Assembly: GCA_004335835.1 (NCBI GenBank)
Contig: RWJK01001088.1
Span: 9,342 to 73,341, forward strand
Direction of reading: 5' to 3'
DNA: 64,000 nucleotides
Origin: Scenedesmus sp. ARA3
Lineage: Eukaryota > Chlorophyta > Chlorophyceae > Sphaeropleales > Scenedesmaceae
Position 1 is the stretch's first letter, and each line of letters begins with the position of its first letter. The notes under the pieces were generated by a model, which did not search any database, was not told the origin of the DNA, and saw only the letters and a program-made list of their open reading frames with translations. The position numbers and the translations under genes were made by a program. Below are positions 6,075 through 39,500 of this stretch, one piece after another.

Positions 6075-7808
6075 ATGATGAACGGGGGGATGGCCATGCC
6101 ACCTCTGGGGGCTGATGAACAGCGTATCAGTAATGCGATCAGTCAGATCATGGCAGCTGCGTCTCAAGACATTCAGCAGCTGTCTGTTCTGGATGTCAGC
6201 ACGCCCCACAGCGCAGTGCAGGCTCTGGAGGCAAAAGTGCAGGATCAGTTCAGGCGGTTGAGGTCCATACTGCAGGACTTGCAGTATGCAGCAGAGGAGC
6301 AAGAGACGTAAGTGAAGGCTGATTAGTGCTGCATCAATGATCTGCAGGCTAGGGGATGCGTGTAGGAGCATCCTAAGGCGTGCCTGTTGTGCTGCTTTGT
6401 ACTGCTGCAGGCCAGACCAAGTGCAGCGCGTGGCAACATGCTTGGCTCACCATCAAGGAGAGCTTGACAGGTACGATCTGCTGATAATACATGCTCATCT
6501 GTAACCCTGCCTGCAGCGCGTGTCAAGCAGGGATCAGTGCCACTGCTGTGCTGATGTGCAGACACAGTGGCTTGCTTCCACTTTGGCACAGCAGCAGCAG
6601 CCGTGTTTGACGCGGTGCATGCTGTCCTGCAGGGCACACAAGGCTTACTTGGATGCTCGCGTCTCGTTTGCACGGAGAAAGGACCAGTCCTATGTGCAGC
6701 AGGTGTGTGTACAGGACGTATGAGCCTGTAATGCTCGGCTGTCTGTGCCTGCAGCAGCTGCCGAAATGCAATGCCGGCTGCTGATACCTGCATTCGCGAG
6801 CCGCATCTTGCATGCAGCACCTGAGCTTGTCACAGTGCACACGACTCAATTCACGCTTGGCTGCTCTTCAGCAACCACTGTCAAAGGCACTTAGCACTGC
6901 TTCCTTCATACGCACTGGCATAGGGCACTGGACGTCATGCAGCTCTGCATGCATGTTGCACTGTCCCTTGTTACTGCATTTGGAACGTAGCAAGTTCTGC
7001 TTGCACCTGCTGCTTTGGGCTCTTCTTTCACTTGCAGTCACTGACTCCCGCTTGCAATTATGTCATCACAATATGTGTTTCTTTCCGCAGCGCCAGGAGC
7101 TGATCGGCTCCCCGGACTTCAGCCAGCGGCAGCGGCGCATCGCCAGCGAGCAGGACGCGCTGACAGGTGCGCAGGACGTGACAGCCAGCCTGCGGCGCAC
7201 CAAGCAGCTGATGGCGCAGAACCTGGAGCAGACGCACGGCAACATCTCCGTCATAGGTGCGTGGCCAGCACAGGCGGCCTGCGTATGGGTCAGGCCATAC
7301 ACGCCGGGTGTTGTTCTGTGTATGCAGCAGCATGGTGCAGCAAGCTGGTGTGTGTTGGCTGGAGTATGCTGCGCTGCAGCAGCGGTGTACTGGATGCAGT
7401 TGGCCATGTAGGCAGTGTTGCACCGATTGCCTCATCATGCTGCGGGGCCGTGTTATCGTTGCCATGCGCCTCACCCATGTTTCCTCTCCTGCCACATGCG
7501 CTGTGCTGCAGCTGCCGGCAACAGGCGGCTGGGGCTGCTTTGAAGCAGTCGTTGCACCCCTTGCCTCAATCTCAATGGTGTTGGGGCGGCTGATCAGTCT
7601 GGTCATTGTCGCCATGCACCTCACCCCCTTGCTGCTGTGCTGCCCTCTGCCCCCTGTTTCCTCCCCTTCCGCGTGTGTTGTGTTGCAGCTGCCGGCAACA
7701 GGCGGCTGGGCGAAGCTGATGATGAGCTGGTGGGCCAGAAGCAGCACTTCAGGGAGGCGCACGGCAGCCTGGGCACGCTCAAGCGGCAGGCCATGATTGA
7801 CAGGTGCG

Positions 7809-7839
<31 letters not shown>

Positions 7840-10800
7840 AGTTGCAGCTGCCCCCTGTACTACGAGCCTGCACAAACTAGATAGACTCGCCACATGTTGT
7901 ATCGCTGGCTGCTGCAAGCGCCAGGCCATGATCGACAGGTGCGGCGGCTGCGCAGCCGGCGTGCTTCTGGGTGCTGCTGCTGTGCGACGCTGCAGCTTTT
8001 GATTGCACTGTGTGGAGCCTGCACACGATAGATAAAAAGTTGGATAGATAGATAAACTGTCTGATTGCCGATGGCTGACTTGCTGCCGCATTGCTGCTGC
8101 TGCTGCTGCCGCAGGCTGGCCTTCTGGGGCGGCTTTGCCTTCTTCATGCTGGTGGTGGCCTACATCTCCTTCAAGCGCACGCCCGCCTTCATGAAGCAGC
8201 CGCTGTATGCGCTGCTGCACATGAAGCAGGGCGGGCAGCCCTTCACTGCCACCGACTATGCAGCCGCAAACATCCCTCCGGGGACGTTCCTGCCGACTGA
8301 GAAGCCGTGGGGCGCAGGGGAGGCCGCGTACCCAAATGAGTGGGCAGCCTGGGACTCGAACTTTGCAGGCGTGCAGGGGCCGGCAGATGGCCAGGGTGCG
8401 TTTGCAGAAGCCGAATGGCTGGATGCAGAGAAGAATGAGCAGGTGCAGCGGGCTGGAGGGGAGGCGTGGCAGCGAGGGGAAGATGGCTCGCTGCTGCCGC
8501 CGCGGCTGCAGCGGCTGAGGCAGCAGGAACAGCAGCAGCAGCGCGTGCCGGATGCGCCTCACACGCCCAGGCAGGGTCAGGAGCAGCCGCCAGGCAGCGC
8601 TCAGCAGTGCATGGAGGGAGATGTGGCATGCCACGCAGCAGCAGCGGCAGCAGCAACGGCGGCTGCTGGTGGAGGGAGTGAGTCCTGGGGGTGCTCTGCC
8701 ACTGATGGCTCATGCCATGGGGCCGCAGATGGTGCTCACAGGCAGCAAGGTGGGCATATCTGGGGTGGTGCTCGCGTGTGGTGGTGCTTGCTGTTGGGCC
8801 TGTACAGGGCATGGTGATGCATCATGGTGTGGTGTTACATGTGCTGCGTGTGCACAGCTGGTGCTGATTGCATGCTCGTGCTAATTGCCGTGGGTGTGTT
8901 TGCTGCAAGCTTGCATCCCTGGTGGCGTTTGATGCGGAGTATCTCCTGCAGCTCCGCTTTGGCAGCTCACTGATCAGAGCACCCGCACGTGCCTCTTTCC
9001 AGCACAGCATCTCACCAATGCTGGTGTCTGCCCCTGTCCTGTTGCCTGCTGCTGCCGCTGCTGCTGCCGCTGCTGCTACTGATGCTGCTGATGCTGCTGC
9101 TGCTGCTGCAGATGCTGACGAGGATGATGAGCCACCAGGAACCTTCCACGATGAGCCAGCCACTCCAGACTACCCCACATGGCCAACAGAACACCCCGCA
9201 GACAGCCAGCAGCAGCAGCAGCAGCAGCAGCATGCGCACCCGCCAGCAGCATTAGGCATCATTGACCCTGATGCAGCACACGCCGCTGCAGATGACAACG
9301 CTAGCAGCAGTCTTGAGGGCCAGCCTGATCCTGCTGCTGCTGCTGCTGTGCCTGGCAGCAGTCCCGAAGGGCAGGCTAGCGTGGAGGAGGATGCCGATGA
9401 ATTGGAGTACATCAGGCAGCAGCAGGCGCAGCAGCAGGCAGCAGAGGCTGAGAGGCTCGCGCTGCAGCAGCAGCAGGCGATGCAGCAGGAGCGTGAGAGG
9501 GCGCAGCAGCAGGCCCTGCAGCAGCAGCGTGAGCGAGAGCAGCAGGAGCAGGAGCAGGCACGGCTGCTGTTGGAGCAGCAGCAGCAAGAGCAGGCGCGCT
9601 TACTGTCAGAACAGCAGCAGCAGGAGCACCAGCAGCAGCAGCAGGTGCCTGCAGCAGCTGAAGATGCGCAGCAGCACACTGGGCAAGTGCCTGCGGGTGA
9701 TGCTGATACTGCTGTTGTGCCCGTAGCTGCACAACCCACCATTGCCGGACATGCCACTCCTGAAGATGCAGAAGCTGCTGCAGAGCAGAAGCGCTTGATG
9801 CTTGAGCAGCAGGCACTTGAAGCTGAGCGGAAGCGCTTGCTCACTGAGCAGCAGGCTGGCCAGCAGCAGCCAGCTGAGGCTGACAACGAAGCTGGTGTTG
9901 CTGCTGCTGACGAGCACCAGCAGCAGCTGGAGGCTGCAAAGGCAGCAGCTGCTGCTGCTGCAGCTGAGCAGAAGCGCTTGTTGCTGGAGCAGCAGCAGCA
10001 GGCGCTGGAGGCAGAACCGGCAGCAGCGGCAGAGCGGGAAGCAGCAGAACGGGCAGCAGCAGAGCATGCGGCAGCGGAGCAAGCAGCAGCGGAGCGAGCA
10101 GCGGCAGAGCGAGCAGCGGCAGCAGAGCAGGCAGCAGCTGAACAGGCTGCAGCAGCAGCAGCTGCAGCTGCAGCAGCAACTGCAGCAGCACATGCTGCAG
10201 CAGCCCAGGCTCAGCAGGCTACTGTTAATGCTGCTGCAGCGCCTGCAGAGGCCGCAGGGCAGCTGCATGACGCACCCGCAGCAGCAGCAGCAGGCGAGGC
10301 ACCTGAGACAGCAGTGGCCTCACATGTTGAGGAGCCGACAGCTGTGCATATGCAGGGAGAGCGGGCGCCAGCAGCAGCAGAACTGCAGCATGAGCACCTC
10401 CAGCAGCAGCAGCCAGACGCAAGGGAGGCCCAGCTCCCAGCAGTTGATGTGCATGAGCCAGCAGTGGGGCAGCAGCAGCAGCAGGCGGCAGAGGTGGCTG
10501 CTGCGCAGGCTGCAGATGCACACACACCTACGGGTAGCCACGTTGACGAGCCTCAACATGTGCAGCACCCGGCGGAAGTGCAACACATAGACTCCCAACA
10601 TCAGCAACAGCAAGCTGAGCAGCAGCAGCAGCCAGTGGAACTGCAGCAGCAGCAGCAGCCAGAGGTGTTGGTGGAAGCCCCTGCTGTGAATGTGCTGGAG
10701 CAGCAGCATGCTGTTGACCAGAGCCAGCAGCAGCAGCAGCAGGAGCCCCATAGCACCTTTGATGCACATGCTGAGCTGGTTGTGTCTGAGCCAGCAGCTG

Positions 10801-10900
10801 ACAGCCACCCGCAGCAGCAGGAGCAGCAGCAGCAGCAGCAGCAGCATGTGGAGGTGCCTCAGGAACCACCACAGCCCCGGCATGAGGAGCTGGCCACACC

Positions 10901-10934
<34 letters not shown>

Positions 10935-12746
10935 GAGGTTGCAGAGCCTGAGCAGCCGCACCCTGCTGCTGCTGACAGTACTGCAGCAAGTCAGCGGCAG
11001 GCGCAGCCAGCAAGTCATGAGGAGGCCCAGCAGGCAGCAGTGCAGGCTGGCGCAGCTGAGGTGGCAGCACAGCACGCAGCACACCATGCAGCGCAGCATG
11101 CAGCACAGCTGCTGCGGCAGCAGCAGCAGCAGATGGAACAGGTTGAGCAGCAGCTGGGGGAGGTGCTTACTGCACATGACATTGTGACAGAGCAGCAGCA
11201 GCAGCCTGCTGCCAGCCATGACATGGCAACACAGACCAGCCAGGACCTGGCAGCAGGCTCTGCTGCAGGCAGGCAGCAGCAGCAGGAGGAGGTGCAGCCT
11301 GCCCCTGTGGAGCCCAAGCAGCAGCAGCAGCAGCAGGCGACTGCAGGCAAGATTTCCACTCCTGAGGTTGTTGCACCAGTGCCTGTTGAGCCAGTACAGG
11401 AGCAGCAGCACCAGCAGCAGCAGCAGCAAGAGCAACCTGCCCCTGTGGTGCATGAGCAGCAGCAGCAGCAGCAGCAAACAGCGGCCGCAGGAGAGCCAAC
11501 CCCTCCCGAGGTTGCACAGGTGCGGGTCGAGCAGGCAGTGCACGAGCAACAGCAGCAGCAGCAGCAGCAGCACGTGCCTGCAGAGCCAGCAAGTGCTGCA
11601 GCTCCTGTTGTTGATGCTGCAGCAGAGGTGCCAGCTCAGCCGCCAGCAGCAGCAGCAGCAGCTGACACGCCTGTGCCTGTGGCCCAGCAGCAGGCAGCCC
11701 CTATTGAGCCAGAGCATGCTGATGCTGCTCCAGCAGTGGAAGCTCCGATGGAGTTGCCAGTTGACCACCACCAGCAGCAGCAGCAGGAGCCAGCTGTGGC
11801 AGACATACCTGTGGCAGCAGCAGCAGTAACCGAGCAGCTGCTGCACACAGACTATCACCAGCAGCAGCAGCAGCAGCATGCTGCACCTGCAGCTGCCAAT
11901 GACTTGGAGGATGCCACAGGCGCAGAGAAGGTGCAGCAGGCAATGCAGGCGCGCAGCGCGGGCCTAGTCAGCCGACTGCTCAGCAAGGCCAGGGCAGCTG
12001 CAGCAGTACAGCCGGAGCGCGCCGCTGCAGCCAACGCTGCTGCATACTCTGCTGCGAATGCGGCTGCCGCAGCAGCAGCAGCGGCAGCAGAGCAGGCTGC
12101 GGTGAGGCGCAGCAGCAGCAGCAGCAGCGGCTCAAGCATCTTGCCTGGTGCTGCTGCATCATCTGTTGTGATGGAGGTGCGGCCCCATGAGGGCGTGTAC
12201 CAGTACTTTGATGCAGCATACAGCGACTACTACTTTGGCTCTGCAGCTGACGCTGCTGACGCAGAGGATTACGCCAACTGGGTGTATGGCAGCGCTGGCG
12301 GCGCTGATGGTGGGGCTGGCGGTAGTAATCCGGGGCTGCTGGATGACTTGGATTACTATGGGGAGCGCGCTGACCCTGCTGTGCTGGATCAGGCACGAGG
12401 CGGTGCAGCTGGTGGTGCTGGAGGTGCTACTGGGAAGCAGCAGCAGCAGCAGCAGAGGGCTGGCAAGCTGGCTGGTGCTGCGGGGAAGGAGTATGACAGT
12501 CATGACAGCAGCATGGATGGTGTGCCGGGAGAGGCCGTGCAGGATCTGGATGATATTAGCAAGCTGATTGAGGAGGAGCAGGCGCGGGCATTCACTATCA
12601 TGGATATGGAGGACGTGGGGCTGTATCATTATGAGCCGGAAGGGAGTGAGGAGGCTGCAGCTGCCGGCAGCAGCAGCGAATGGGAGCAGCAGCAGCAGCA
12701 GCAGGAGGAGGCGTCAGGCAGTGACAGCGAGCACACAGAGCTGTGA
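6075..12746 (+). CDS. SEC20: SEC20/BNIP1-type ER SNARE with giant lumenal tail
   Basis: Seven exons: 6075-6307, 6411-6470, 6633-6702, 7091-7256, 7689-7803, 8115-8677 and 9112-12746; phases agree throughout, giving about 1,613 residues. Sec20 is a Qb-type SNARE of the ER acting in retrograde Golgi-to-ER fusion. The N-terminal half has short helices, then the Sec20 block (TASLRRTKQLMAQNLEQT, RRLGEADDELVGQK, LKRQAMIDR) leading straight into a membrane anchor at about residues 216-235 (LAFWGGFAFFMLVVAYISF). After the anchor the protein should face the ER lumen; normal Sec20 proteins have a short tail, here about 1,380 residues rich in Gln and Ala. The last residues are HTEL, a KDEL-like retrieval signal; yeast Sec20 ends in HDEL. 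The final intron (GTGAGT at 8678, CTGCAG before 9112) is inferred; an alternative donor at 8750 keeps the same phase. The first ATG is at 6075. Confidence 0.85.
7451..7533 (+). repeat. Partial copy of SEC20 intron-4 end plus exon-5 start
   Basis: The 22 bases after the CAG at 7509-7511 (7512-7533) are identical to the first 22 bases of the real exon 5 (7689-7710), and the preceding intron sequence (GCCATGCGCCTCACCC...TGCTGCAG) resembles that before the real acceptor. This is a decoy 3' splice site 177 bases upstream of the real one. Confidence 0.75.
7781..8036 (+). repeat. Tandem duplication of SEC20 exon-5 end plus intron-5 start
   Basis: The real exon end (AAGCGGCAGGCCATGATTG, donor after 7803) is copied at 7916-7938 with two or three changes and an intact CAG|GTGCGG donor at 7939. 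Following intron sequence is also shared (GAGCCTGCACA then GATAGA). The offset is 135 bases. Confidence 0.75.
8027..8055. repeat. GATA tetranucleotide microsatellite in SEC20 intron 5
   Basis: Two short GATA runs separated by TAAAAAGTTG, 60 bases before the exon-6 acceptor. Confidence 0.7.
9112..12746 (+). other. Last SEC20 exon: low-complexity Gln/Ala lumenal tail ending HTEL
   Basis: A single open stretch of about 1,210 codons. It starts acidic (ADEDDEPPGTF), passes through long Gln, Ala and Glu/Gln-rich heptad-like blocks (about 9400-10200), then imperfect repeats of Gln runs spaced by Pro/Val/Glu segments. It ends in a more complex acidic, Tyr-rich segment (GVYQYFDAAYSDYYFG near 12195; LYHYEPEGSEE near 12620). 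PPGTF also occurs early in the preceding exon (PPGTFLPTEKPW), a small internal similarity that supports one protein. No ATG precedes the open frame except one at 9018, inside the predicted intron. The stop TGA at 12744-12746 follows HTEL directly. Confidence 0.7.
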
Positions 12747-15119
12747 TGACGTGCCTCTGTATGCGTCAGCTTTGGTGGGTGCTGGGAGAAGGATGCGTAG
12801 ATTTATGCACACTCTAGAGTGTCGGCTGAGATTTATGTGAGTGCATGCGGTGTATGTGCGCGAGTGTTTCAGATAGTTCATGGTAACGGGTTTCTGGTCT
12901 TGGCTTGGATCCAGGCTGGTTAGCAGATTGCATCCGTAGGACAGCAGCACTGCAAAGACACATAGGAGCAGAAGCAGGAGCTGCACATGCTTGCAATACG
13001 AGGTTCAGCAGCCATGGTGGCCTTTTTGGGGACCACTTCTAGCCATGTGAGTACTCATTATGCTGCATTATACTTGAAATGATTGACCTGCTTGCACGTT
13101 GCACCAATTTTATACTGCAGATGGACCGACCTGTCTGTTCACAATATTTGCCCCAGATGTGGTGCCATTGTACCGTTACATTCAGCACACCTTCATCCTC
13201 ATCAGGTTCCCCATCAAGCCAAGCATCAACTTGAGTTGAACTCAGGACACCTTGCATGCTCAACCAACACAGTTTTACCGCTTACCTGCGCATGAGCACG
13301 GCCATTAGGATGCACACACAGCAACCACGTGCACCATCTGTTCCACAGTACGTGTGTCGGCACCATGCAGAGTATGCATTTGTGGCCGCTGGCCACTGAG
13401 CATGCCTAGCTACGGCAAAGGTTGGTGTTGTATGCAGCGGCCATGCAATGCTGCACGCAAGGCTCCGGCACCTGCCTCCACCTACACCCATGCAACAGCA
13501 GCTCCTTGGCTGGCAGCTCCTTGCATAATCATGTCTGAGGACTGGCCTGGAAACAAATTAAATGCTGTTGACAACACATCAGGTAGAGTGAAAGATAGAT
13601 AGATAGAAACACATGTCCCAATGGCTGGACCTATGTTCAGGCCCAAACAAAGCAGCTAGACTGCAGGGGTACACCTTGCACAATAGCCTTTCATGTTACG
13701 TGGGCCCAGCCCTACCCCTCAACAAGGCAATGTTCACAAAACAAAGCATTTGAAGAGTCAGGCAGCGTGCAGGCCGCAGCTGCGGCACTGCAACCCCAAC
13801 GAACAATCTTGACGGCGGATGTTGGTCGCCTGACACTCCCACACTGCATTGAGCTCGTAGGAGTCGATTCAGCAAAGCCGCAACACAGCTCACTGCAACA
13901 CAGCTCACTGCAACACAGCTCACTGCAACACAGCTCACTGCAACACAGCTCACTGCAACACAGCTCACTGCAACACAGCTCACTGCAACACAGCTCACTG
14001 CAACACAGCTCACTGCAACACAGCTCACTGCAACACAGCTCACTGCAACACAGCTCACTGCAACACAGCTCACTGCAACACAGCTCACTGCAAGCGTATT
14101 GCTTGCGGTCTGCCTTACTGGTCTAGCATCCCAGTCCCATGCTGCCTGGCCTACCAGCTGCGCACTAATGGCAGCCCAGCTGTGCCAAATGCCTCTTCCT
14201 GTGGGGCCTGCATACATGCCAGCTCAAATGGCCTTGTGCTGCCCCTACTGCAGTGAATCCCAAACAAGTCGTTGCATGTTTGATGCAACCCCAAAAGCAC
14301 CAAGATATGACCACCCAATACCAAAAGATCAACCCAGCGCAGAGCCGCCAACAGCTGTTGTATGGCAATTGAATAAACAAGAGACAACATAAAGCATACT
14401 AATCAACGCCTGTGACCTATGTATACGTATTGCTGATAACAAAAGGTAAGTACATAGGTAGATGTGTATACAAAACTGCATAGTGTGCAAAACACAACTG
14501 TGACTCCGGCATTGGATGTCACCTGCCAGGTGTGAGGCAGCGCAGGTGGCAGCAAACCCATATACAGACAGGCAGCAGCACCAGCAGCACATGTGGCTGC
14601 CAGCAGGTGCATCCAGCTCAACCTATTCCCAGAGTTTTGGGGCCGCGTTTTTATGCAGGCCACGGCAAGCAATGCTCATGCGTTGGTAAAAAGATGGCCC
14701 GCTCTCTATGGCCTAGAGACCTCTAGTACAGCGTGCAATGCTGCACACCGCATGCAGTATACTGCATATATGTTAACCCCAACTGCAATCCAAGGCACAG
14801 CGTTTCATTGAAACAGTCAAGACAGGTGCTGCTGGATCTACATCACAGCCAGCATGCCCTTAGACACATACGTGTACTTTTGACCTGCATGAAGCTAGCA
14901 TTTAAACAAAAAGCAAATGGTGTCTTCGCCAATTGCACCAACCTAGTGTCAGCGTCAGCACATGCTCTGGCAAATGCGTTAGCAGTACACACTGAGGTGG
15001 TAAACCACCATGGTGACCCCTGCACCCCACAATAGCACCACCGAAGAGCACCATACCTAGGGCTCATGTGTTTTGGCAGGAGTGCTTTCGTTGCGTCCCC
15101 ATCCCGTCTATGCAGTGCA
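12747..15119. other. Convergent intergenic spacer, SEC20 to Cys-rich gene
   Basis: No exon-like sequence with family similarity was found. It should contain both 3' UTRs. It holds a 15-bp minisatellite at 13880-14093 and a short GATA run near 13590-13605. Open frames across the minisatellite only reflect its length being a multiple of three. Confidence 0.6.
13880..14093. repeat. 15-bp minisatellite, about 14 copies
   Basis: The unit CACAGCTCACTGCAA repeats without visible variation. It is open in several frames (LQHSS on plus, VSCVA on minus) because 15 is a multiple of 3. It is intergenic on the gene models given here. Confidence 0.95.
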
Positions 15120-18100
15120 TCATGCAGCAACCAGGGAATCTGCATGCAGCCTGTCTCCCTGAATGTGATACATGCCAATCCAATCAGAGCTCAGCTCGCT
15201 GCCAATCAGCTTGCAGGATCCAGCACTACTCAGCAAGCTAGCAGCAGGCATGCTAATCAACTCACAACCGGGGTGTGACTTGCATTCAGCCATGCATTCA
15301 GCAGGACTCTTCTCCCCAGCATCTGACAGCAAAACACCAACAGACATATCATCTGGGAGCCGGTAGAATGCAAAGTCTTGCGCGTTTGAACCAGCCTTGA
15401 ACCCAAGGGCCTGGCTACCATCTGCTTTTTCAAGCAGTAGCTGGCAAGTAGGGTCTCCCTGGCCAGTACTGAAGCGGAACAGAATGCAGGCCGCATTGCT
15501 GCGGCAGTTGCTCTGGCACTGCACGCTGCTGTCAGCATCATCATTTGTCCATGCTGTGTCATTGCTAACATGGAAGACGTCCTCATCAGCATCGACCAGG
15601 GCAGGGTAGCACTGCGTGTTGTCTGTGGCTCCCCGCGCAGACACAGAGCCGCTTGCGCAAGGCACACAGTCCGTCCCTGCTGTCAGCCCACCAGTCGAGA
15701 ATGTGTTGTGCGGGCAGGTCGTGCAGTTGGCCCCACCATAGCCTGCTGCGCAGGCATTGCAGTCTGCTGCTGAGTCAGACTCGTCACGCTGCGTGGTGAA
15801 GCCGCGGGGGCAGGCGATGCAGCTGCCGTTGCGACCTTCAAGTGTGCCACCCGCTCCCCAGGTGCCGGCGTCGCAGGGCTGCAGCAGCAAGCAGAGACAG
15901 GCGGCAGCAGCCGTTTAGTACAGAGAGCGCTCAGAGCAGGTTGACGCTGGAGTGTGTTAGCTTTCAGCCTAGCAGCTAGATGGCTTAGTAGGCATAAGGA
16001 GGCCGAGTTGCGAGTTGAGCGTGCTCTCCAATGCTGGGCGCACGGTGTGATATGCATGCTGTCACGACCGACGCCACATGCTGCTTGTGGAGCACCATCA
16101 AATCGGCCTGCTACAGCCACACAACAGCACTATACAAAGCAGCGCTGACACTGCAGCTGTGCGTACCTTGGGTATGTTAAACTTGCTGTCCATCGCCCAG
16201 CCTGACTGCACAACGCAGCTGTCCTCGCCATCTGCGCCAGCTGCCAACGAAGTGTAACCTGTGTCACATGCCCTGCATGGCTGCGAGGCAGGAAGCAATG
16301 CGGGTCGGCAAGAATGCAGCAGTGGGCGTTATGACCTCAAAATATCAGGCGCAAAACCGCCCACTTCTTACTGTGTAGGGTTGAGCATCTATCCGCAGCT
16401 GCAGCGTGCATGCATGCATGCATCTCATTACTCTTACAGTTATGTCTCATGATGTCCAGCTGAGCAGGTGTTCAGCCGCTGGCATCAGGTTTCCCCATGT
16501 GCCATGCTTGCAACCACCATGCTGCGCCACACCCTCACCACATGCTACATGCTAAACCTCAAGCCTCCTGCAAGCTCAACCAGTCATCACCCACAAAGCC
16601 CTGCTCACCTTGCGGTTCAAGCCCTCGTTGTAGCTCCCTGCAGGGCACAGCTCCACACCTGTTGCCATCACGCCCCAGCCAGGCTGCACCAGGCACGCCG
16701 TCTCATCCACATAACCACTTCCAGCTGCTACACTCGTCAACTGGTCCATTGTGAACATCTTGGGCGGGCACAGCACACATCTGGAGCTTGCCACAACCGC
16801 GCGCGTGCTGTTGACTCCGTAGGAGCCATTAACACACATAACTGCTATGGCCTCTGGGGTGAGCTGTGAGAGGCCCCAGCCTGCAGGAATGAGGCAGGCA
16901 TCTGATGATACAGATCCAATCTTGGCAGTTGTGAGGCCGCTGCCGCACTGCAGAGCAGCAGCAGGTACAAAGGAAGGCAGGCGTGTGACGGGCATGACAT
17001 GACCGTTGCTGGTCAGGCTGTGGTGGCTGGCTGGCTGCTGTCAACAACAGTTTATCACGTGCAGCGGCTGGTTTGAAAGAGGTCAGACAAAACTTGTTTG
17101 GCCTATTGCAAAATGCAACAGCAGCAGTTGGGCTGTGGAGAAAGCTCATGCTATACTTACTGCACTGCAATTGTTCTTGTTCCACCCTTCCTGCAAGGGA
17201 CAACACAGACAGTGGCAGCACACAAGCCGAGGTCAACAGCATGAAACAAACAGATTGCAGCATCACAGCTACACATGTAGTCGACAACCGCTCGGGCCCC
17301 AGCGCATGCAAGCATGGCATGCCAATGCATGCATCAGTCACCATGTAAAGCAAGTGTTTGCATGCGTGAGTTGACAAAGCTGCTGACCAGCCGGCTTCCT
17401 GCAGGCCAAATTGTCGTCTCCTGCAAGCCAAACTTCATACCTTGAAGTAGCCAAGTTCACACTCCGTGATGAGGCTTGCGCCTGGCTTCAGCTCCCAACC
17501 AGGAGGAGCCAGGCACTCCGCATTGCCTGCTGCCCCCTCAGCGCGTGTATAATACCCAAAGTCGCAGGGGCTGCATTCAAACACAGCAGCCTCGCGCCCT
17601 TGGTAGGAGCCTGGAGGGCACACTGCAGCTGTGGCTGCCTTGCTTGCAGCTGCAGCTGCTGAAGCTGCAGCTGCTGTTGTGTTTACAAGGTGGAAGCCAG
17701 GCCTGGCCAGGCCGCATGCGGAGGAGCTGTTGCTGCCGTCACCGGGCGTGGTCACTCCAGCAGGGCTGTGTTCAGCAGCAGCGGAACAGGCGGCATGTGA
17801 ATGTGAGCAGCAGTGTAGGCGGCCACTTGCACCAGTATGATGCAACATAGGGTAAGGTTGTTATGACAGGAGCGAAAATTGTAGGCAAGCAGCTTCCTGC
17901 CAGCATCATCATCAAGCATGCTCATATTCCCTGCAAAGGCAGCCAGCTGAAAGAGCAACGGCCTCAACTCCATGTTTCGGTCAATGCAGCGAGTCCTGCT
18001 CACCATGCAATGCAGGCTGAGAGGTTGTTCAGCTCCTCAGAGTACATCCCTTTCTGGCAAGCTTTGCCGGTGCCCCGCTCAACATACGAGCCAGCTGGCG

Positions 18101-21100
18101 CCAGGCACATGCTTGCATGCATTGACCTGGGGCCAAGCGTTGTGAGGCCGGCGCCGCACTTCTGGCAGCCGGCTGTGTTGCCCCCGGTGTTGTAAGTGCC
18201 AATTGGGCTGCAGCAGGCGGCAGGCAGGCATGGGATTCGTGGTTGGTGTTTGTAAGGGTATATTTGTAGTATGTTGGATGCATGTCAAGGTGTTAGGCGC
18301 TGCACAGTACTCAGTCTTTGAATTTCATCGTTTGTATCAAAACAAGCGAGGCGGTGAGCCACCGAAGTTTAGGCAGCAGCTGCCACAGAGCCTGCTGTGT
18401 GCTGGATAGTGTGCTATGTTGCTAGGTAAAGAGAAGGTTGTTTGGTGGCATCTCAGGTGTTGTGTACTGCAGTTGCCCCACTCACCATTCTGTGACCTGC
18501 ACCACCGTCTGTATGCCGACCTGCGTAGTAGTCCTACCAAAGCCAGGCGCAGTGAAGCACTGCAGGACAGCAGCAGATCACAGTCAAACATAACATGACA
18601 TGAATAGCTGTTTCAAGCGGTGCAAGGCAGCTCACTCAAATGCTGCTTGGAAGCATGTTTTGCGCTGCCTGCAAGCTGCTCCCTGTTGGGCGTGGTAGTT
18701 CGACCACTGGCATTGACCATGGCGGTATGAGCTTCTGCTTCAACAGGGGGAGTTTCCTCGTCAACAAAGCCAGCACAAGCTACTGCTCTTAGCAGAACTT
18801 CAATTAACTGCTCTTGCGCGTTCTACTGACAAGGCCATGCTTTACAAAAGGGAGCAGGAGCAGCTTCAGTAAAAAAAAGAAACTCCTGGCAAGCGGACAG
18901 CTGCTGGCATGAGCCATAAGAGCACCATAAGAGCACCATAAGAGCACCATAAGAGCACCCCCCACCTGCGTGGAGCTCTTTGCTCCTGTAGAGACAGTAG
19001 CCAGGCCCTCAGGGCAGCTGCTTGCTGCACTCTCAGGGTTATCTGCTCCTCCACCAGGGCAGTACTGGCCCTGCACAGCAGAGAGCAAGCGCAGCACACA
19101 AGCACACGTGCAGGGTCACACTGTGCGCAAGCAGTATGACATACTGTCACATGTAATATGCCCATGGCCACACCATGCTACGACGGAAAACAAGTACTAG
19201 GCGCAATACACCAGAGTGCATGCAGTTGCATCACTGCTGCTGCCAGTGCCTGCTGACTTCAGGTGTGTTTGCTTCAGTGACAGGTGCTAAATGCCGGCAT
19301 CAAAACCCCTACATCGCAATAGTCTGCAGATGTGTTGGGGTTTGTTCACAAAAGGTATTCAAAGGCGTTGACCATCACTCACCTTGGGGCAGGGTGCACA
19401 CCAGTTGCTGATGTCATCTCCTGTGCCGTTGAAGGCCATGCCAGGTGCGCAGTCTGCACCAGCAACAGATTGGCACACGCAGCGCACAGCAGCAGCACAG
19501 CACGCACACCTCAGCCACTGCTCTTGAAACACAAAGCAAGCCTTCCTCTCCCTACTGCAACACACGCAGCATGTGTGTGCAGCCCTGGCATATGGCAAGC
19601 AACGTAGCAGCAGCATACTGACCCCGCAAACCCAGAAACAGCAGCAGCACCCACCGCATGTCTTGGACTCGCCATCACGCCTCAGCCTCCAGCCAAGGAA
19701 GCAGGCTGTGCAGGCTGTGGTGGTCTTGGTTGTGCCTGGGATGCGTATCTTGCCGCATTTCTCACAGCCCCTGTGGATATCCCTGCAAGGATTGTCCTCC
19801 ACAGCACCAGCCACTGCAGGGTTGCAGGAGTTGCAGGTGAGCCAGGAAGCAATGCCAGGGATGGGCAGCCCTTGATGAATGGGTTGCAGGTGTTGGGAGC
19901 AAGTGAGGCTGTATGATCACCACGCAAGCGCTGCTTCGCAGTTGCTGCTGCCTTGACACTGCAGTGAATCGTGTTTAGTTCAGAAACAAAACAAGGAGCA
20001 TGACAGCAGTGTTCTAAAGCTGGCTAGCATGCAGCACACCTCAGATACATCAAAGCGCCACAAGCAGCAAGCATGGGATAAGCCCCACACAGCCTCACTC
20101 ACCCTTGCAGCAATCACAGTTTCCACAGCCTGGGTACTCTGTGTTGACCCCATCAGTGAAGAAGAAGCTCTTGCCGTTTGCAACGCACACCTGCTCGGCT
20201 GTTTTGTTTCCACTGCTGAGTGCCTGCAAGTCCTTAGCCTTTGGCTTACTGCACTGCCATGCTGCCGGCTGATTGGCAGACATGATGACAGGGATGTTGT
20301 ACACTTCCTGGGTTGTGTTGAGTGCGAATGTGTAGGCGGTTTTGCCAAGGTTAGTAACGTCCAGTGACAGCACGGAGGCATAGGATGTGCTTCAGTCGAG
20401 TCTGTTGTACAGCACAACCTTGGACAGGCCACCAGCACAAGGGTACCTGCAGGGGTACAGCCAGCCAGCACAGCATGGTTGAGAAATAACTGATAATACT
20501 CACAGATCTTATTGATCATGGCAGCAGGAGCTCGCTGAGACGCAGTCCACGTCAAGTCAAATCACTTGCAAGCTGTACTTGCTCAAGCCTCATAGCTCTG
20601 AAGGCGTTGCATGCTTGCAGAGCCTTGCATGACAGCGGTCTGGCTGTTGACACATGGCAGCCTGCGCGCGCAATTAGTAAGGCAGAGGCACATGCAGTAC
20701 TCTGCACTGATCTGGAGCACCATCCACCACATAAAATCTCCATGCATCTCCGCATGTTTGCTTATGACACCGCATGTCCATTGCCACACATGCGCATGCA
20801 CATACGTCGCCCAGCATGCTAGAACGCTCAACAGCAGGCCGATACATCCCTAACTGCTGCACATGTGAGCTCATAGTTGAAGCGCGCCAAGTCTCGGCCC
20901 AATCCAGGGGACAGTAACTCACCCAAACCGCATCCAAGGGTACGGATCGCCCGTGAAAGGCCCCAGAGTAAAGCACAGGTTGAAGGAGTTCCAGTTCCGG
21001 TTCCAGGTAGCCCCATCAAGGCACTTGCTGGCTGAAAAGTCCTGCCCCTGGCCTGTGTATGCAGATGACATGCTGCCAGTCACCAGCGAAGCAGGGATCT

Positions 21101-25577: not shown

Positions 25578-25613
<36 letters not shown>

Positions 25614-26297: not shown

Positions 26298-26330
<33 letters not shown>

Positions 26331-27070: not shown

Positions 27071-29052
27071 ATGGCCCTCACTTGCAAGTCTGTAGTGGTC
27101 ACTGGAGGCAGCAGGTGAGCTCAACGCATGCACAACGCCAATGCACATGTATGCAACGTTGCGCACACAAACCATCAACAGCAACATGTACGGCATGTCA
27201 CTCACACACCCCACCAGCCACGTGCCCTGGTGTGGGCAACACTGCTGCTCTGGTAAGCTCCACCTCACCTGCATTAGCTGCTGCCACACCTGCAGGGGAA
27301 TAGGCAAAGGCCTAGTAGAGAAGCTGCTGTCCCGCCAGAACAAAGTGATCGCTACCACCCGCAACCCACAAGACGCCAGCCAGCTGCAGCAGCTTGCAGC
27401 GCAGCACTCCAACCTGACCATCACACAGCTCGATACCAGCCAGCCACAATTCATCAAGGACTGGGCAGCATCCCTCAAGCAGCACACCAGCCATGTGGAT
27501 GTCCTCATAAACAATGCAGGTGCGTCCATTGCTTGATGATACGCTGCTGGCTGGTACACTGTGCCTGCATGACAGCGCACTCGGAGCACGAGGAGGCTTT
27601 GGGCGGGGGTCTCCTGGTCCAGCTTTGCTTGAAGGTGCACAGCCTTGCATGTACTGTGTACAATCTTTATGCATTAATTACGTTACATTACATTACATTG
27701 CATTTTGCAATGCATTACAGTGCATTACATTACATCACATCACATTACATCACATTATGCAACGCAGGCATGTATGGCCGCCGGCTGCAGCTGGCAGAAT
27801 TTGAAGCCGCGGACTTTATGACGGTGTTTCAAACGAATGCAGTAGGGCCGTTCTTGGTGGTGCAGCAGCTGCTGGAGCAGGGCTTGTTAGGCCCTCCAGG
27901 GAGCCTGGTGGTCAACGTGAGCAGCATCATGGCCTCACACGGGGATGAGACAGTCAGCGGCATCACTCCAGGCGGCTACGCCTACAGGTGTGCTGTGACG
28001 CTGTAAGCCAGTAGTGCAGTTGCGTAGCTGGCGCGGCAACACAATGCTGGAGGGTAATGACAGCATTGTCTGTGCTTTGCAAACTGAGATTCGGCGTGCG
28101 TGCGGGTGTGCTACACTGCGGCGTCACTGCAGGTGGCTACGCCTACAGGTGAGCTGGTGTGGCGTGTGCAGCTGTGCAGCTCGCATGGCAGCGCTATGCT
28201 TAGTAATGATCTGTCAATTCACATCTGACATATCAGTATGATTCCAGGCGGCTACGCCTACAGCTGGGTTGGTGTGGAGGTGCAGCTGCGCAGCTGCCAA
28301 GGCAGCGCTGTGCTGAGTAAGGATGGATCGTATCATATCGGACATTTGCGACAGGCGACGGTGCAGCTGCGCACCTGGCATGGCACCTCCCTGGAAACCT
28401 GCGACCATTCCAGCTCATGCGTCACCTGCGCAGTTTGCTGTCTGTACCGTCTGTTGCATGTACGTGCTCCATGCTGATGAGACAGCAGTGCTGCGGGCGC
28501 TTGCTAAGAAACAGTTTCTACTGCTGCTGCTGCCGCTTACAGGGCGTCCAAGGCTGCGCTGAACATCATCAACAAGGCGCTGCTGCTGGACTTGAAGGAG
28601 CAGCAGGTGCAGAGCTGCTGCGTGCACCCGGGCTACGTGAAAACCGACATGACAGGTGCGGGCAGTTCACACACAACATATCTGGCAGCAGTGCCTAGCT
28701 TACAGGCTGGCAACAGTAGCTCACCAGGATGCTTTGCACTGCAGTGATGTTTCCGTTGACACTTGTGCACACTGTTGAACTGAGATGGCGTGGTAAAGCA
28801 GGTTTGCGAGTACATGCTGGTGACGCCGTCTGTGTTTGCTGCAGCAGCTCGTGTACAGACATCACAGCGCGCTTACAGTAGTCGGGTACGGTGTGTGCTG
28901 TCCTTGGTGTGATGCTGTGCTGGCCGTGTGCAGGTGGTGCTGGCTGGGTTGATGTGGAGGAGAGCAGCAGCGGCATCATGCGGGTGCTGGAGGATGGGCG
29001 GCCACTGAATGGCAGGTGGTACTCCTACTCAGGGGATGAGATCCCCTGGTGA
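27071..29052 (+). CDS. Short-chain dehydrogenase/reductase (sniffer / C-factor-like)
   Basis: Five phase-compatible exons: 27071-27114, 27296-27519, 27768-27987, 28543-28655 and 28934-29052, encoding 239 residues. Classical SDR enzymes use NAD(P)H to reduce or oxidise carbonyl/alcohol substrates. The nucleotide-binding motif VVVTGGSRGIGKG is split by intron 1. NNAG is split by intron 2. The catalytic Ser lies in VVNVSSIMAS and the YxxxK motif is YRASK, split by intron 3. HPGYVKTDMT follows, and the C-terminus (GRWYSYSGDEIPW) is like carbonyl-reductase/sniffer SDRs. The length fits a single-domain SDR. The substrate cannot be told. Intron 3 contains two extra copies of the exon-3 end. Confidence 0.9.
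27681..27760. repeat. ATTAC/CATTA pentanucleotide-like repeat in SDR intron 2
   Basis: An AT-richer run of TTACA/CATTA words with a small inverted repeat (GCATTTTGCAATGC) just before the exon-3 acceptor. It differs sharply in composition from its surroundings. Confidence 0.8.
27961..28263 (+). repeat. Three tandem copies of the SDR exon-3 end, two inside the intron
   Basis: The real exon end (GGCGGCTACGCCTACAG before GTGTGC, exon end 27987) is repeated at 28132-28148 with an intact donor (GTGAGC) and at 28247-28263 where the donor GT has become CT. Intron sequence after each copy is also related. Offsets are 161 and 115 bases. Confidence 0.8.
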
Positions 29053-31172: not shown

Positions 31173-34100
31173 TCAGGTGTCGTGGTGCGGCACGATGCTG
31201 AGGGTGCGTGTCGGCTTGAAGCCTGGCACCATGGGGGCGCCCCAGCCGCTGGGCGGGTGCTCACGACGCCTGCCCACCTGCAGGAAGCAGAAAGCGTGGG
31301 CACAAGCACGATTATTTCAACGTCCATAGAGTTGTTGAAACAGCCAAACCAAACTCAAGTAGCAACAGTAGGGTCAACAATGCATGTGCACATCAGCAAA
31401 GCATGCAGCGGGGATTGCCAGGCACCCGTCTCGCCTGCTGCTGCACCGTGCTTCCTCCCCAACCAGGTCCCACAACATGTGAAAACCAAATGTGGTCACC
31501 TACTGCTGCACGTCGCCCGCCATAGCGCCCACAACCATAACATCAAACGAGCTTGCGCAGACTCTATCACAAAGGGCATCGCCTCTACATGAAAGGCATT
31601 TCACCGCACCTGGTACTGCACCGCGCGCTTGCCACTTGCCACGTGCATGCAGCAAATGTGGTCCACCACCACCTGCTGCGCGTCACCCACTACAGCGCCC
31701 ACAACCATGACATCACACAAGCTTGCAGATTCTATCAAAAAGTGCATTGCCTCTACGCCACACGCATTTCAACGCACCTGGTATTGCACCGCGCGCTTGC
31801 CGCTGGCCACGTGCATGCAGCACATGCGGTCCACCACCACCTGGCCATCCTCCTCTAGGCTCAGGTAGTCCTCGCACACGCTCTCCACCTCGTGGCGCAT
31901 CATGCTGCGCGACACGGTGCGCAGCACCAGCGTGCCGTCAGCAGTCATGTAGATGCGGCCTGCGCAGCGCAGCGGGCAGGCGGGCAGGCAGGCAGGCGGG
32001 CGGGCAGCAAGACCAGTGAGCAACAGCAAAGCACAGGTCACCAACCTCGGCAGAAAGCAGGTTACAATGCGGCAGACAAGACATCAAGTTCAGGACCAAC
32101 TGGGCTTCTCAGAGTTGGCCGTGCGGCCTGCTGTACGCACAGACAGCACTAATCATGATCAGTACCCTACACTTGGATACTTGCTGCACCCCCTGGCAAT
32201 CAGCGCACAATACCAACCGGCGGCAGCACCGCTGGGACTGCACTGCACTGCCGTGCATGCCATCACAGCCGCCCCTCGGGCACACACCTGACATGCTTCC
32301 GAAGCCCATGTCCCGCCTGAGCGACCACACCGCCTCTGTTGCGTTGGTCTTGTCATAGTACTCACAGTAGTTGGCCAGAGCACCAGGCGGCAGGAAGCTG
32401 GGCTTGGCAGTCACTGCCGCAGCAGGCACAAACACACATTTGGTTAGTGGAATGTACATAAGCGAGCAGCAAGTGGACGTCAATCATCGTCTAGAGGCAA
32501 TGTGCACGTACTACGAAACAGCACTGTGTATGTAAGACCCCGGCATCTGCCATGGCTTACAGTTGTCAAACGAGTTTAAAGCAGCACGCGCTGGCCAGAG
32601 GCGCCTCACCAGTGCTGGCCCCACCCACTGCTGACAGCTTTGCAACGACAGTGCTGCTGCTGTGGCTACACCTGCCGCGATGTGTATTGCTGTTCTGTTT
32701 GCCACCAGACAGCAGAAATGCACAAACTGCCGCTGCTGCCCAGCCCAGTGTCACATTATTCCAACCCGTTCACAAGAGCATGTACCTGTCATGGTTGTGT
32801 CGTTCTCCTGCAGCCACAGCCCTGGGATGCTCTTGTGTGCGCGCTTCACCAGGAAGCTCAGGCCCAGCATGACGTCAATGGGCTGGCGGCAGCAGCAGCA
32901 GCATAGTGCCAGGTTACGGGTTACCGATAGCAACAGGTTGCACAGCAATGCTTGCACAGCTGCAACTTCCAATGCGTTGGCTTCCAGTGCGTTGGCTGCA
33001 ACTAGGCGAACAAGCGTCACAGCAGCAAACATGCATGCAGGGCGCCGGGCAAGACACTGCATCTGCACACAACCCTCTGCCGACTGCCACCTTTGCCAGA
33101 ACCAAGGTGGCAACCACCTATGGTGCTGCTGCTTGCGCTCACCTGTGGGAAGGGTGTGGTGCGCGCCATGTCATTCTCCCAGTATGCTGCAAAGCCGGTG
33201 TGTGCTGGCACAGGCACATAGCTGGTGCCAGGGGCTGCAGCAGACAATGGAGCAAAGGATGCAGTTGAACCAGCACGAGAAGGCGTCACGACTAACATTG
33301 AAAAGGATGAGCCGTCACACTGATGTGCATGCATGCATCAAGCACAGCAGCAAGCACCGCAAGCTGCAAACGTACTGCCAGCAGCCACAGCTGCATCCTT
33401 GGTCACCATTCTGCAGTCTGAGCACTATCAAGTATGCATGCCTGTGCAGCACTTGATGCAGAACCGCTGCAGGCACTACAAGCAGTCTAACACAGCAGCA
33501 GCAGCAGCACCACCACTCACGTGCAAACAGCAGCGGCGTCTCAGGCACCCATGGCGGCCTGCTGCCGCCGCTGGCCAGCCGCGCTGCAGCACCAGACACG
33601 CCAGGCACCCCTCCCGAGGGCTGCTGCTGCAGCTGCAGCTGCTCCTGCAGCTGTGATGCAATCGTTTCCAGCTCTTCTGTGCTGTTGACGGTGGGCAGCT
33701 GGTGGTCTGAGTGATCTGAGCCATGGCAGCTTTCTGCATCGTAGTATTCAGTTTCTGCGCGGCTGAGCTGGGAGAGCTTCTGGCTGTGGCGGCGGGGTAC
33801 AGCGTCCCAGGTTTTGTGGCCTGAGAGGCGCCTGCCCACTGGCAGCTGGGGCGGCTTGCTGGCTGCCCTGCACTCTGCTACTGTGGGGAGAATGGAGGAG
33901 CAGAGTGGGGTGAGGGGGAGGGGCAGCCGAGGAGGCGGAAGTTGGCGGAAGCAGACAGCAGGTGAGTCAGCCTGGGACTTTTTGGTTTTTGATACACCAG
34001 CGCCAAGATGCATGATACAGTGTTTGGGAGCGATGTAAAGATGGATGGCAAAAGGGTTCATGCGATGAGTACGAGCAGTCAACAGTCTGCAAATGCACAT

Positions 34101-34492
34101 CACAGCCCCACACAGGCAGCTGCATCGATGTTGCTGGGAGTTTTGATGTGACCCAGCTGCATGCGCTTGCCTGCATCTGCCTCCTCGCTGCTCAGTGATC
34201 CCAGGGGAGGCTCCGCCACTACTGCTGGCTCATTCACTGCAGGCCTGTCGCCGAAGCATGAACAGCTCAGCAGGGCAGCCAGGCGGCTTCGCCTGGGCCT
34301 GACAACCTGCTGCTGTTGCTGCTGCTGCTGTCGCTGTGGCTGCAGCTGCTGCTTGGCTGGATGTGCAGACTGCATGTGAGGTGCTGCCTGCTCGAACGGC
34401 GATGCAGGGGTCATGGGGACAGCAACCCATGCGGTTAGGTACGGCGATTGCTGCTCTTGCAGCACTGCATCTTCAGGCACTGCATGCGGCAT
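31173..34492 (-). CDS. Unrecognised protein, 433 residues, 7 exons
   Basis: Phase-compatible exons: 34492-34153, 33880-33521, 33234-33143, 32882-32786, 32413-32288, 31959-31778 and 31277-31173. I do not recognise the family. The N-terminal half is low in order: Gln/Pro/Ser-rich, with an acidic patch (AETEYYDAESCHGSDHSD) and a short Glu/Gln helix. The C-terminal half looks like a folded domain with conserved-style segments (AAYWENDMARTTPFPQ, DVMLGLSFLVKRAHKSIPG, LANYCEYYDKTNATEAV, RIYMTADGTLVLRTVSRSM, CEDYLSLEEDGQVVVDRM, CCMHVASGKRAVQYQ) and a basic Pro-rich end. No signal peptide or membrane span was seen. Start is the first ATG in frame (34492); the exon-1 donor is the weakest splice call, with a second option about 35 bases further. 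Intron 6 carries a duplicate of the exon-6 end. Confidence 0.7.
31504..31843 (-). repeat. Tandem copies of exon-6 end and intron-6 start in the unknown gene
   Basis: The real segment 31772-31843 (exon-6 end and donor) is copied at 31604-31675 with about five or six differences in 72 bases, offset 168. The intron piece 31676-31770 is likewise copied at about 31504-31603. The copy has its own CAGCAG acceptor and CCAG|GTGCGG donor. Confidence 0.85.
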
Positions 34493-36094: not shown

Positions 36095-36461
36095 CTAGTG
36101 CTGCCCATGCGCCGCAGCTGCTGCTGCTACTGCAGCCGCTAGGTCAGGCAGCTGAGCCAGCAACCCACTGCTGTTGAAGCCCTGCGCCTCATCTACTGCT
36201 GCTTGGTGAGGCTGCTGTGCATTGCCACTACCACGCGAGTCTGCTGCACCTGCCACAGCCATTAATGCAGCAGTCAAGCTGCTGATCGCTGCACTGTCGA
36301 GGCCACCCAGCCCTCCCTGCGCAGCATCTGCAGGCTGCTGCGGCTGCTGCTGCGAGCGCGCCTGCTGCCGCTGCCGCACTGCTGCTGCCAGCGTCTGCAG
36401 GATTAGCGGCAGCACCTGGCCAGCTGCTGCTTGTTGCTGCTGCTGCTCGTAGGCTGGTTGT

Positions 36462-36502
<41 letters not shown>

Positions 36503-39500
36503 TTCAGCAGCTGCCAATGCAGCAGCCTGCTGATTTGCAAGCTGCAGCTGCGCAGGCAGCATGCCCCGTGTGTCGTACCCTGCTGCACCTGCAGCGGCAG
36601 CTGCTGCGCTGCTGCTGCTGTTGATGCGCGGCAGCGGCCGGCTCGCAGGCGCAGGGAAGAAGTCCCGCTGCTGCACCTCAAACTGCTGCTGCGGCTGCGG
36701 CTGCTGGGGTGCAGCAGGCGCCATGGGCCAGAAGCCAGCAGCTTGCAGCAGCAGCTGCTGCTGCTCCTCCCTGCTGCGGCTGGTGGGGCTGCCAGTGCTG
36801 CTGCTGCCATGCAGCGCGCCAGGCGCTGCAAAAGCAGCAGCTGCAGCAGCATCTGTTAGCAGTGCCGCTGCTGCAGCTGGCTCACAGGCAGCAGCAGCTG
36901 CTGCTGCTGCTTCTGCACCCCGTGGGCTGGGACTGTTAGTGCCCCACTCCCCAGCAGCATAGCCAGCAGTGCTAGCGCCTGCATTGTGTAGGGAGTCAGC
37001 AGCAGCACCACACACTGACGGCGATGCTGCCCTGCTCACCGACGCGCCGCGTTGCTGCTGCTGCTGCTGCTGCTGCGCCGCAGCATGCCTGCTGCTCTTC
37101 TGCCGCTTTGGTGGGGTGGCTGCGGCAGCTGCTGCTGCTGCTTCTAGGGCGCTTGAGCTGACATGCTTCTGCTTGCGGGAGCGGTGTGCAGGCCTGAAAG
37201 AGCCTGGGGCAGGAGGTGCTGCTGCTGCTGCTGCTGCTGCAGAGGGCCAGCCGCCTGCAGCGCTGCTGCTTGGGGCGGCATCAACCTGCTCCTCTTTCTT
37301 CACTGCTACTGCTGCTGCCCCTCGCGCAGGCTTACACTCAACCTGATCGCCAGCAACACCACCCAGCTGCTGCTGATCCAGCATCATAGCGTCCTCTACT
37401 GTAATCACATCCCCTGTATCGCCTGCTGCTGCAGCAGCAGCAGCGGCAGCTTTCCCTGCCCTGCCGCCCGCCCCGCGCGGCCTCGACCTCGCCGGCGGCC
37501 TACTCCGCTTCACCGGCCTCACATAGCCGCCGCCCGCTGCTGCCGCTGCTGCTGCCGCCGCAGCCGCCGCAACAGCAGCAGCGCCAGATGCCCCTACCAC
37601 TGTCGCAGCCATCTCATCCAGCTGCTGCTGCGGCATGCTGTGCCACTCCACGAGGAACCTCGCGCCCCCGATATCGATGATATCGCCATGGCTCAGCTCG
37701 TAACACACGCCCTTGTCAACGAGGGCTTTGCCGTTGAGCAGCGGGGGTGTGGCGCGTGTGGGTGGGTGCATGGGGCGCAGCGTGACCCCTCCATCTTCGT
37801 GTACCACCAGCTTGCTGTGCAGCTTGATGCCGGCTACAGGCACCTGGAACTCCACACCGCCACCCTGCAGTGCAAAGCATCAATTGTTGATTTGTTGTAG
37901 TGAGATCCTTGAAAGCCAAATGCACCACCAGCTTACTGTGCAGCTTGATACCCGCCACTGGCACCTGGAACTTCACGCCGCCACCCTGCAGGAGTACACC
38001 AGGAATGCAGCAGACACGCCGCACATGTCAGCACCAATGCACCACCAGCTTACTGTGCAGCTTGATACCCGCCACTGGCACCTGGAACTTCACGCCGCCA
38101 CCCTGCAGGAGTACACCAGTAATGCAGCAGACACGCAGCACATGTCAGCGCCAATGCACCACCAGCTTACTGTGAAGCTTGATACCCGCCACTGGCACCT
38201 GGAACTTCACGCCGCCGCCCTGCAGCGCAAGGCATCAATATGTTGTGTCCTTATGTGTTGAAATGCATGCAGCACCAACGCAGCACCAGCGGTTGGTTGC
38301 AGTGGCTGGGATGTGTTTGGTTGCTGAACATGCATACAGTGTTATGAGAGAGTGTCACAGACTCCCTGCCCTGCAGATCCTCGCCACCCATGCACGAGCA
38401 GCTGTACTAGAGTACTGCATCACCAATCTCATAGCTGCGGCTGCAGCAAGCTGCTTCTGCCCAAGCCACAAACAAGCCACTGCTGCCACCTTCCCTCCAC
38501 AGCTGCAATGCACACAGCTGCACAAACACAGCCACTGCGCCACCCACCTTGTAGTGCGTGCCAAAGTGCCAGTGTGACTTGCCCACAAGGTTGACAGGCA
38601 CATTGGGTGCCATGCCCACAGCCACGCTGTGCAGCGCCGCACCACCCTCGCCCTCATTGTTCAACGGCACCACGCGCACATACCGCGCCATCTGCTCCTC
38701 GCCCTGCTGCTGCTGCTGTTCAGCAGTAGCTGCGAGCTCATCTCCTGACTCTTGCTTTACACTGCCCATCCCCAGGGCATCTGCTGCTGCTGCAGCATCA
38801 GCGTCAGAAGCTACAGCATCGCCTGCAGCAGCTGCATCAGCAGCAGGCTCGCCATCTAGCTGCTGCAGCCCTGCTGCTGCTGCCTCATCCCCTGCTGCAG
38901 TGCCCTGCAGCAGTTGCAAGCTGTCAGCCCGGCCGCGCAGCACAGCCCCCGCAGCCTTCAGGAACGCTGCTGCTGCCGCTGCACTGCTGCGCTGCTGCCG
39001 CCCGCCACCCAACAGATCTGCCGCACCATCTGCAGCAGTGTCTGCCGCCGCCGCCGCTGCTGCTGCTGCTGCATCCTGCTCTTCTACCTCTGCTGCCTCC
39101 CCATACTCCAGCGCTGCCGCTGCAGCAGCAGCACCCCTGCAGCGCCCCCTACCCCTACCTCTGCCCCTGCCGCGCGCTGCTGCTGCCACTGCTGCAGGCA
39201 CCTTGGCGCCCGGCCGCAGCCGAATGACTGCAGCTTGCCCCTTCAGCGCTGACAAGTGAACAACAGCAGGGTCCAGCAGCGCTGCACGGCTCGCAGCCAG
39301 CAAGTGTGCTGCAGTCCAATCCTCGGGCACATTCTGCCTCCTGCCTCCCACCATAACGATGGCAGGCAGTGGCGCATGCGGCGCTGCGCCGTGTATGCAG
39401 CTGCCGGCCGCGCAGCAGCTGCTGTCGTGCTGCTGCTGCTGCTCCTCTATGAGCTTGTGCTCTGCATCAATGTGGGCCACCCTGCACCAGGGGCACTCCA

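Follow-up and report, generated by a model that had tools for sequence, protein, structure and literature searches.

Direct copies of exon-intron boundaries inside the introns of a Scenedesmus genome

The closest precedent for the sequences described here is the potato RdRp gene, in which a tandem duplication across an intron-exon boundary is described, in the available part of that report, as one recent event that gave rise to a new intron, its donor being recruited (PMC4974935). As in potato, duplications in the window (the whole stretch of DNA analyzed, 64 kb of contig C772 of Scenedesmus sp. ARA3) cross acceptor boundaries and carry the splicing signals of the intron together with the start of the exon. 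Unlike the potato case as given there, many boundaries of one genome are affected, donors are copied too, serial arrays are formed, and in the genes checked it is old introns that are longer, with no new intron (PMC4974935). The tandem-genomic-duplication model of intron gain likewise involves splice-like sites that are duplicated tandemly. As set out in the accessible part of its description, an exonic AGGT segment is duplicated and the new intron lies between the two copies, whereas the unit here spans an existing boundary. In its known form such duplication creates introns; here it probably lengthens introns already present, which come to hold decoy sites.

Small tandem duplications arising from break repair have been demonstrated in mammalian cells where breaks were made experimentally and, in the part of that work available, are described as the most frequent of the short (<100 bp) human genomic insertions (PMC8355091). 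The copies in this alga are also short, direct and adjacent, but they have a preferred spacing near 120 bp, unlike the break-repair duplications described in that part (PMC8355091). Introners, which the accessible portion of a further study presents as dispersed, mutually similar introns, resemble the present case in that intron change is genome-wide, a kind of change recorded for the most part from fast-evolving lineages, green algae among them (PMC9860276). They were nevertheless rejected as an explanation, since a search with the array of the PHD gene (below) finds only itself and one with a 3-kb stretch of RPN2 finds itself plus 13 matches of 31–68 bp piled on query positions 2100–2180; unlike introners, both arrays thus match their own place, short matches of the RPN2 stretch aside, in a search that covered these two stretches and skipped very common words. 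Searches of an open-licence library gave no earlier report of such exon-edge copies, and the examined parts of the papers on the genomes of Raphidocelis and of Scenedesmus NREL 46B-D3 do not mention boundary copies.

Copied exon boundaries in the window

An earlier note on this DNA had claimed that four genes carry tandem copies of their own exon-intron boundaries in the adjacent introns, in units of 115–180 bases. Self-comparison of the window finds the duplications in all four, at offsets of 115–177 bp, and repeated tandem duplication across exon-intron boundaries is supported. In SEC20, identified by a Pfam PF03908 Sec20 domain (E 3e-15), exon 5 (7689–7803, plus strand) has its acceptor side copied upstream at an offset of 177 and its donor side copied downstream at an offset of 135. 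The original acceptor boundary (7651–7710, exon start 7689) recurs in the intron at 7474–7533 with 87% identity and its AG kept, with a site score of 5.7 compared to 6.7 for the original, while the donor boundary (7780–7816, exon end 7803) recurs at 7915–7951 with 92% identity and its GT kept. This donor copy has the same site score as the original (7.1), and its use would extend the reading frame by 135 nt with no stop. In the SDR gene (PF00106, E 9.6e-39) the donor boundary of exon 3 (27957–27995, plus strand, exon end 27987) is followed, at offsets of 161 and 115, by two intron copies, the first at 28118–28156 (90% identical), whose site score of 8.0 exceeds the 7.1 of the real donor, and the second (the third copy, counting the original) at about 28245–28345, where GT has become CT and the site is lost.

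The other two genes lie on the minus strand. In the gene encoding 433 residues, the donor boundary with its adjoining intron (31653–31843, exon end 31778) recurs within the intron that follows, at 31487–31675, offset by 166, with 84% identity and its GT kept. In the PHD gene an acceptor boundary (37800–37889, exon start 37864) has, starting at an offset of 121, an array of three intron copies with a unit of 117 bp (37921–38225), with AG kept in each and copied acceptors at 37985, 38102, and 38219. These intron copies are about 97% alike mutually and 86% identical to the exon. Nearly all their differences from it fall at third codon positions, which is not the case for the copies in RPN2. The intron that holds the array (37865–38547) is 683 nt long, compared to 205–397 nt for the gene's five other measured introns, and the three 117-nt units make up much of its length. 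The FHA part of the name PHD-FHA, under which the gene had first been listed, is weak, its Pfam match (E 0.053) falling under the cut-off, and a homologue search with the PHD-gene region gave no homologue. Two perfect tandem arrays, each 100% identical, also occur in the window: 14.3 copies of a 15-bp unit at 13880–14093 and 6.9 copies of a 20-bp unit at 22280–22417.

Donor families copy donors and acceptor families copy acceptors, each unit crossing an existing boundary. Seven of the eight copied sites in the window score within about 1 of the real site, the eighth being the lost SDR site, and use of the copied site would lead to an in-frame stop in six of the eight copies. The statement that most copies keep working-looking splice sites is borne out as a count, with sites kept in 98 of 112 pair rows and in 37 of 41 curated copies (where losses are overstated by about one, since the RPN2 donor at 6012 and the SDR third copy are placed one or a few bases off), though not as a sign of anything beyond chance: by estimate, retention is about what is expected (0.81–0.90) for copies 5–10% diverged.

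Frequency and spread of boundary copies in the genome

The assembly comprises 87.3 Mb in 1567 contigs, from which we took a sample of 20 regions (numbered with the prefix L) on other contigs, with 160,149 determined bases. Each is positions 10001–20000 of a contig whose number was chosen by hand, its contents not known beforehand, so contigs shorter than 10 kb are absent from the sample; two regions below 2 kb (L010 and L013) were excluded from gene finding and cluster density. A gene finder with fixed starting splice profiles predicts 44 genes with 428 exons and reproduces the hand-read SDR model, and because it also calls some copies as exons and fuses SEC20 with a downstream gene, the counts that depend on it are somewhat inflated. 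The boundary test covered 528 predicted boundaries (268 acceptors and 260 donors), with weak genes and exons, exons below 42 nt and low-complexity ends excluded; at each, the first or last 36 nt of the exon served as query against 600 nt of sequence on the intron side.

A direct copy of the boundary's own exon end within 600 nt, at a score of at least 38, is found at 47 of 528 boundaries, a figure that puts the rate per true boundary below 8.9% since some of the 47 are themselves copies called as exons. The controls at this threshold give, per 528, 0.2 with sequence from other loci, 0 with introns shuffled in 2-nt blocks and 0 on the reverse strand; at a score of 30 there are 57 boundaries compared to 1.0, 0.4, and 2, respectively. 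Self-alignment of introns against their flanking exons with a shuffled control, which the earlier note had put forward as the check, thus finds copies far above control levels. The orientation is direct, reverse-strand copies numbering 0 at a score of 38, 1 at 34 and 2 at 30, and copying falls off into the exon, from 47/528 at the boundary itself to 22/459, 5/386, and 1/266 at 30, 60, and 100 nt from it.

Copies are found at 11 of 144 boundaries in the window and 36 of 384 in the sample, where a few rich loci drive the mean (L012 and L027 give 20 of the 36). Duplication clusters (offset <700) number 50 in 18 sample regions (158.6 kb) and 10 in the 64 kb of the window, which corresponds to densities of 3.15 and 1.56 per 10 kb. 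Their number per locus is very uneven (chi-square 61.1, 18 d.f.): clusters are concentrated in L012 (10), L027 (8), L022 (7), and L018, and lacking in L015, L021, L025, L026, and L028. The suggestion of a local process therefore does not stand, as other contigs show boundary copies too and the window lies within their range; the process is genome-wide and patchy. Long GTGA tetranucleotide arrays were also seen, in contigs C118, C203, C240, and C583.

It might be asked whether the copies are an artefact of a fragmented assembly, which has its 1567 contigs and contains N gaps, and one 100%-identical case (L022, 5861–6219) does adjoin such a gap. Most copies, however, are several percent diverged and are spread across many genes and contigs. 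In the window, where the only gap is at 54753–54802, these differences make an assembly slip unlikely, and for the set as a whole we find this explanation very hard to credit. Boundary copies are a true, genome-wide feature.

Copies as parts of long introns

Comparison with published proteins places the copies relative to the mature message. Gene 2 of L012 is RPN2 (PDB 8amz_N, E 3.8e-225), and a 628-residue part of it matches a Tetradesmus obliquus protein from end to end at 99% identity. The 8amz_N sequence aligns in order to the predicted RPN2 once five stretches containing repeated exon ends are omitted (201–431, 518–566, 631–659, 880–914, and 985–1034); the alignment also omits predicted residues 1116–1145, a stretch that is not a copy. 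Joined without the copies, the RPN2 exons give a single continuous frame. Starting with its second exon and up to a point close to its end, this copy-free model equals published T. obliquus RPN2, bar a few substitutions and differences in alanine runs, the predicted first exon and end being wrong in that they differ from the published protein. Two related Scenedesmus RPN2 proteins (P0002 and P0005) also lack the copies, of which there are 23 in total at nine RPN2 boundaries, with one to five intron copies each. The model of the 433-residue gene shares 90% identity with A0A383WPQ1 of T. obliquus, and the published protein (P0121) is again without the copy seen in the window. By these two protein matches the genome belongs to T. 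obliquus or to a closely related strain. Since the published T. obliquus proteins lack them, the copies are intronic in the annotation of both genes, where they fall within a single intron that separates two neighboring exons of the published protein. The two genes show no new intron position, only longer existing introns, and so lend no support to intron gain.

A link between copies and longer introns, on the other hand, supports the proposed route to intron growth. In five curated genes, copy-bearing introns have a median length of 577 nt (n = 11) compared to 248 nt (n = 17) for copy-free introns (Mann-Whitney P 1.1e-5), a comparison that excludes the first and last RPN2 introns, the two 5'-most introns of the PHD gene, all but one of the upstream introns of the 433-residue gene and the doubtful 3' exons of SDR and SEC20. 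Within RPN2 alone, the lengths of six copy-bearing and five copy-free introns do not overlap (P 0.002). The link could partly run in reverse, as longer introns have more room for copies. As to spacing, the smallest offset per cluster (n = 60) falls at 97–143 bp in 31 clusters, 144–219 in 14, 220–280 in nine, below 97 in four and above 280 in two, where copies shorter than about 30 nt are undetectable. At L018 702–1642 on the minus strand (exon 3), coding sequence is itself repeated in units of about 123 bp, which encode 41 residues with much arginine and serine and have the same period as the boundary copies.

The same comparisons bear on the idea that the copies are functional cassettes or mutually exclusive exons, translated in some isoforms, and on the earlier suggestion of new cassette exons. 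The gene finder did call several copies as in-frame exons, and the pattern of change in the PHD gene is the strongest case for coding-like change: nine of ten differences between copy and exon fall at the third position in one comparison, and over the three copies differences from the exon number 3/63, 0/63, and 20/60 at codon positions 1, 2, and 3. Both published proteins compared are nevertheless without copies, the copied sites lead to stops in six of eight window copies, and most copies hold only part of an exon. Taken together, this makes a cassette role quite improbable for the copies as a whole, though those of the PHD gene may differ in this. The exception to partial copying is at L027 7331–7434/7589–7692, where a whole predicted exon of 93 nt is present twice at 96% identity, a candidate true tandem exon.

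An excess of third-position changes among the copies could also be read in favor of translation. Codon positions were tested with curated counts (uncurated counts contain degenerate self-alignments with zero-mismatch rows at overlapping arrays). Between real exon and copy, mismatches at positions 1, 2, and 3 are 35/529, 20/530, and 92/522 across 18 curated families. Ten full-unit pairs, picked by eye from the uncurated set, have 47/654 mismatches at positions 1 and 2, 64/326 at position 3 and 155/998 in the adjoining intron, and these counts fit a neutral copy next to a constrained exon. Between copies the mismatches are 20/365, 21/367, and 38/349, and the lean toward the third position (38/349 compared to 41/732 at positions 1 and 2, P 0.0026, with pairs that are non-independent) is also seen in copy-specific changes (16, 12, and 31 at positions 1, 2, and 3, P 0.005). 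Copies that had been neutral since one common event would give even differences across codon positions. The lean among copies may instead come from copying at different times, some constraint, or gene conversion; copies taken at different times inherit the silent changes of the exon and would show it without any coding role.

Edges of the copies, their probable origin and their meaning

The exon side of the copies is far better kept than the intron side. When two intron copies are compared, 1167 of 1308 positions agree in the 36 nt derived from the exon, with 33 gaps, and 916 of 1148 in the 36 nt derived from the intron, with 109 gaps, the latter being near the identity of 0.74 for unrelated pairs. 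Plain neutral tandem duplication does not predict this difference. In 57 of 112 pair rows (among which there is some redundancy and some exons are called in error) the flank beside the copy has no similarity above the 99% null, and clusters cross a boundary in 43 of 60 cases compared to 30.6 under random placement, with 0 of 2000 runs as high, an excess that comes in part from false exons and from the longer survival of exon-bearing similarity. Of 12 junctions examined by an ungapped measure, which failed on one, that in L020 belongs to a unit overlapping by 3 bp, two belong to arrays of several copies and in nine the match is shorter than the offset, for which spacer, decay, indels or an N gap would account.

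There are two readings of the sharp edges, namely gene conversion from the exon, or copying events whose own edges lie at the junction. In the latter, events would start or end at the splice junction with breakpoints concentrated there, a genome-wide engine pasting exon edges and splice consensus into introns, for which the routes proposed are breaks tied to transcription, a step that involves RNA, or template switching where the words TGCAG or CAGGTG recur. In 38 of the 57 pairs without a similar flank the match stops within 10 nt inside the intron, although several of the matching nucleotides come from the splice consensus itself. The RPN2 copies at L012 3586–3629/3685–3728 and 4274–4316/4504–4546 are 98% identical with flanks not above the null, so that age alone cannot easily explain their unlike flanks. 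In the L027 exon pair, too, the match takes in no more than 4 and 7 nt of the intron on either side, but its spacer retains a weak but significant similarity (z 5.8), which means that some sharp edges belong to older tandem copies with decayed intron. In 41 of the 55 pairs with a similar flank the match runs over 30 nt into the intron, so the edges often lie elsewhere than at the junction, and we regard copying tied to the splice junction as unlikely to be the main process.

Direct copies, spread over many contigs at a preferred spacing, absent from two published proteins and lying in longer introns, are what an explanation has to cover, and we consider it probable that recurrent small direct duplications lengthen the introns of this genome, with the copies being mostly inert by-products, not cassette exons. 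Such duplications would recur in genes, about half of the clusters at 97–143 bp and a lesser group at about twice that. A duplication that happens to straddle an exon-intron boundary would put a partial exon end and its splice site inside the intron. The original outer site could still join the rest of the exon, so that a normal mRNA is possible and the copy remains intron; the copies would be tolerated because this outer site still works. Repeated duplication would then build arrays, which in RPN2 reach five intron copies, and make introns two to three times as long. The direct orientation and adjacency of the copies fit small tandem duplications from break repair as described in the available part of that literature (PMC8355091), which we take as a candidate mechanism at the DNA level. 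Spliceosomes would ignore the copies, and the exon parts may continue to be partially homogenized by gene conversion.

These duplications touch on two open questions, how introns grow and how the spliceosome chooses among equally strong sites, as the spare sites in the window are about as strong as the real ones. One genome offers many natural experiments, with introns that hold from one to five spare donors or acceptors, including those of the essential gene RPN2. Intron definition is the mode of splice-site recognition attributed to Volvox and Chlamydomonas (PMC4378016), and introns whose outermost sites have to win offer a test of it. Gene finders are misled by boundary copies, as was the one used here. 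The mean intron is given, in the part of the source available, as 462 bp in T. obliquus compared to 230 in Raphidocelis (PMC5966456), and exon-edge copies may help account for the long introns of T. obliquus.
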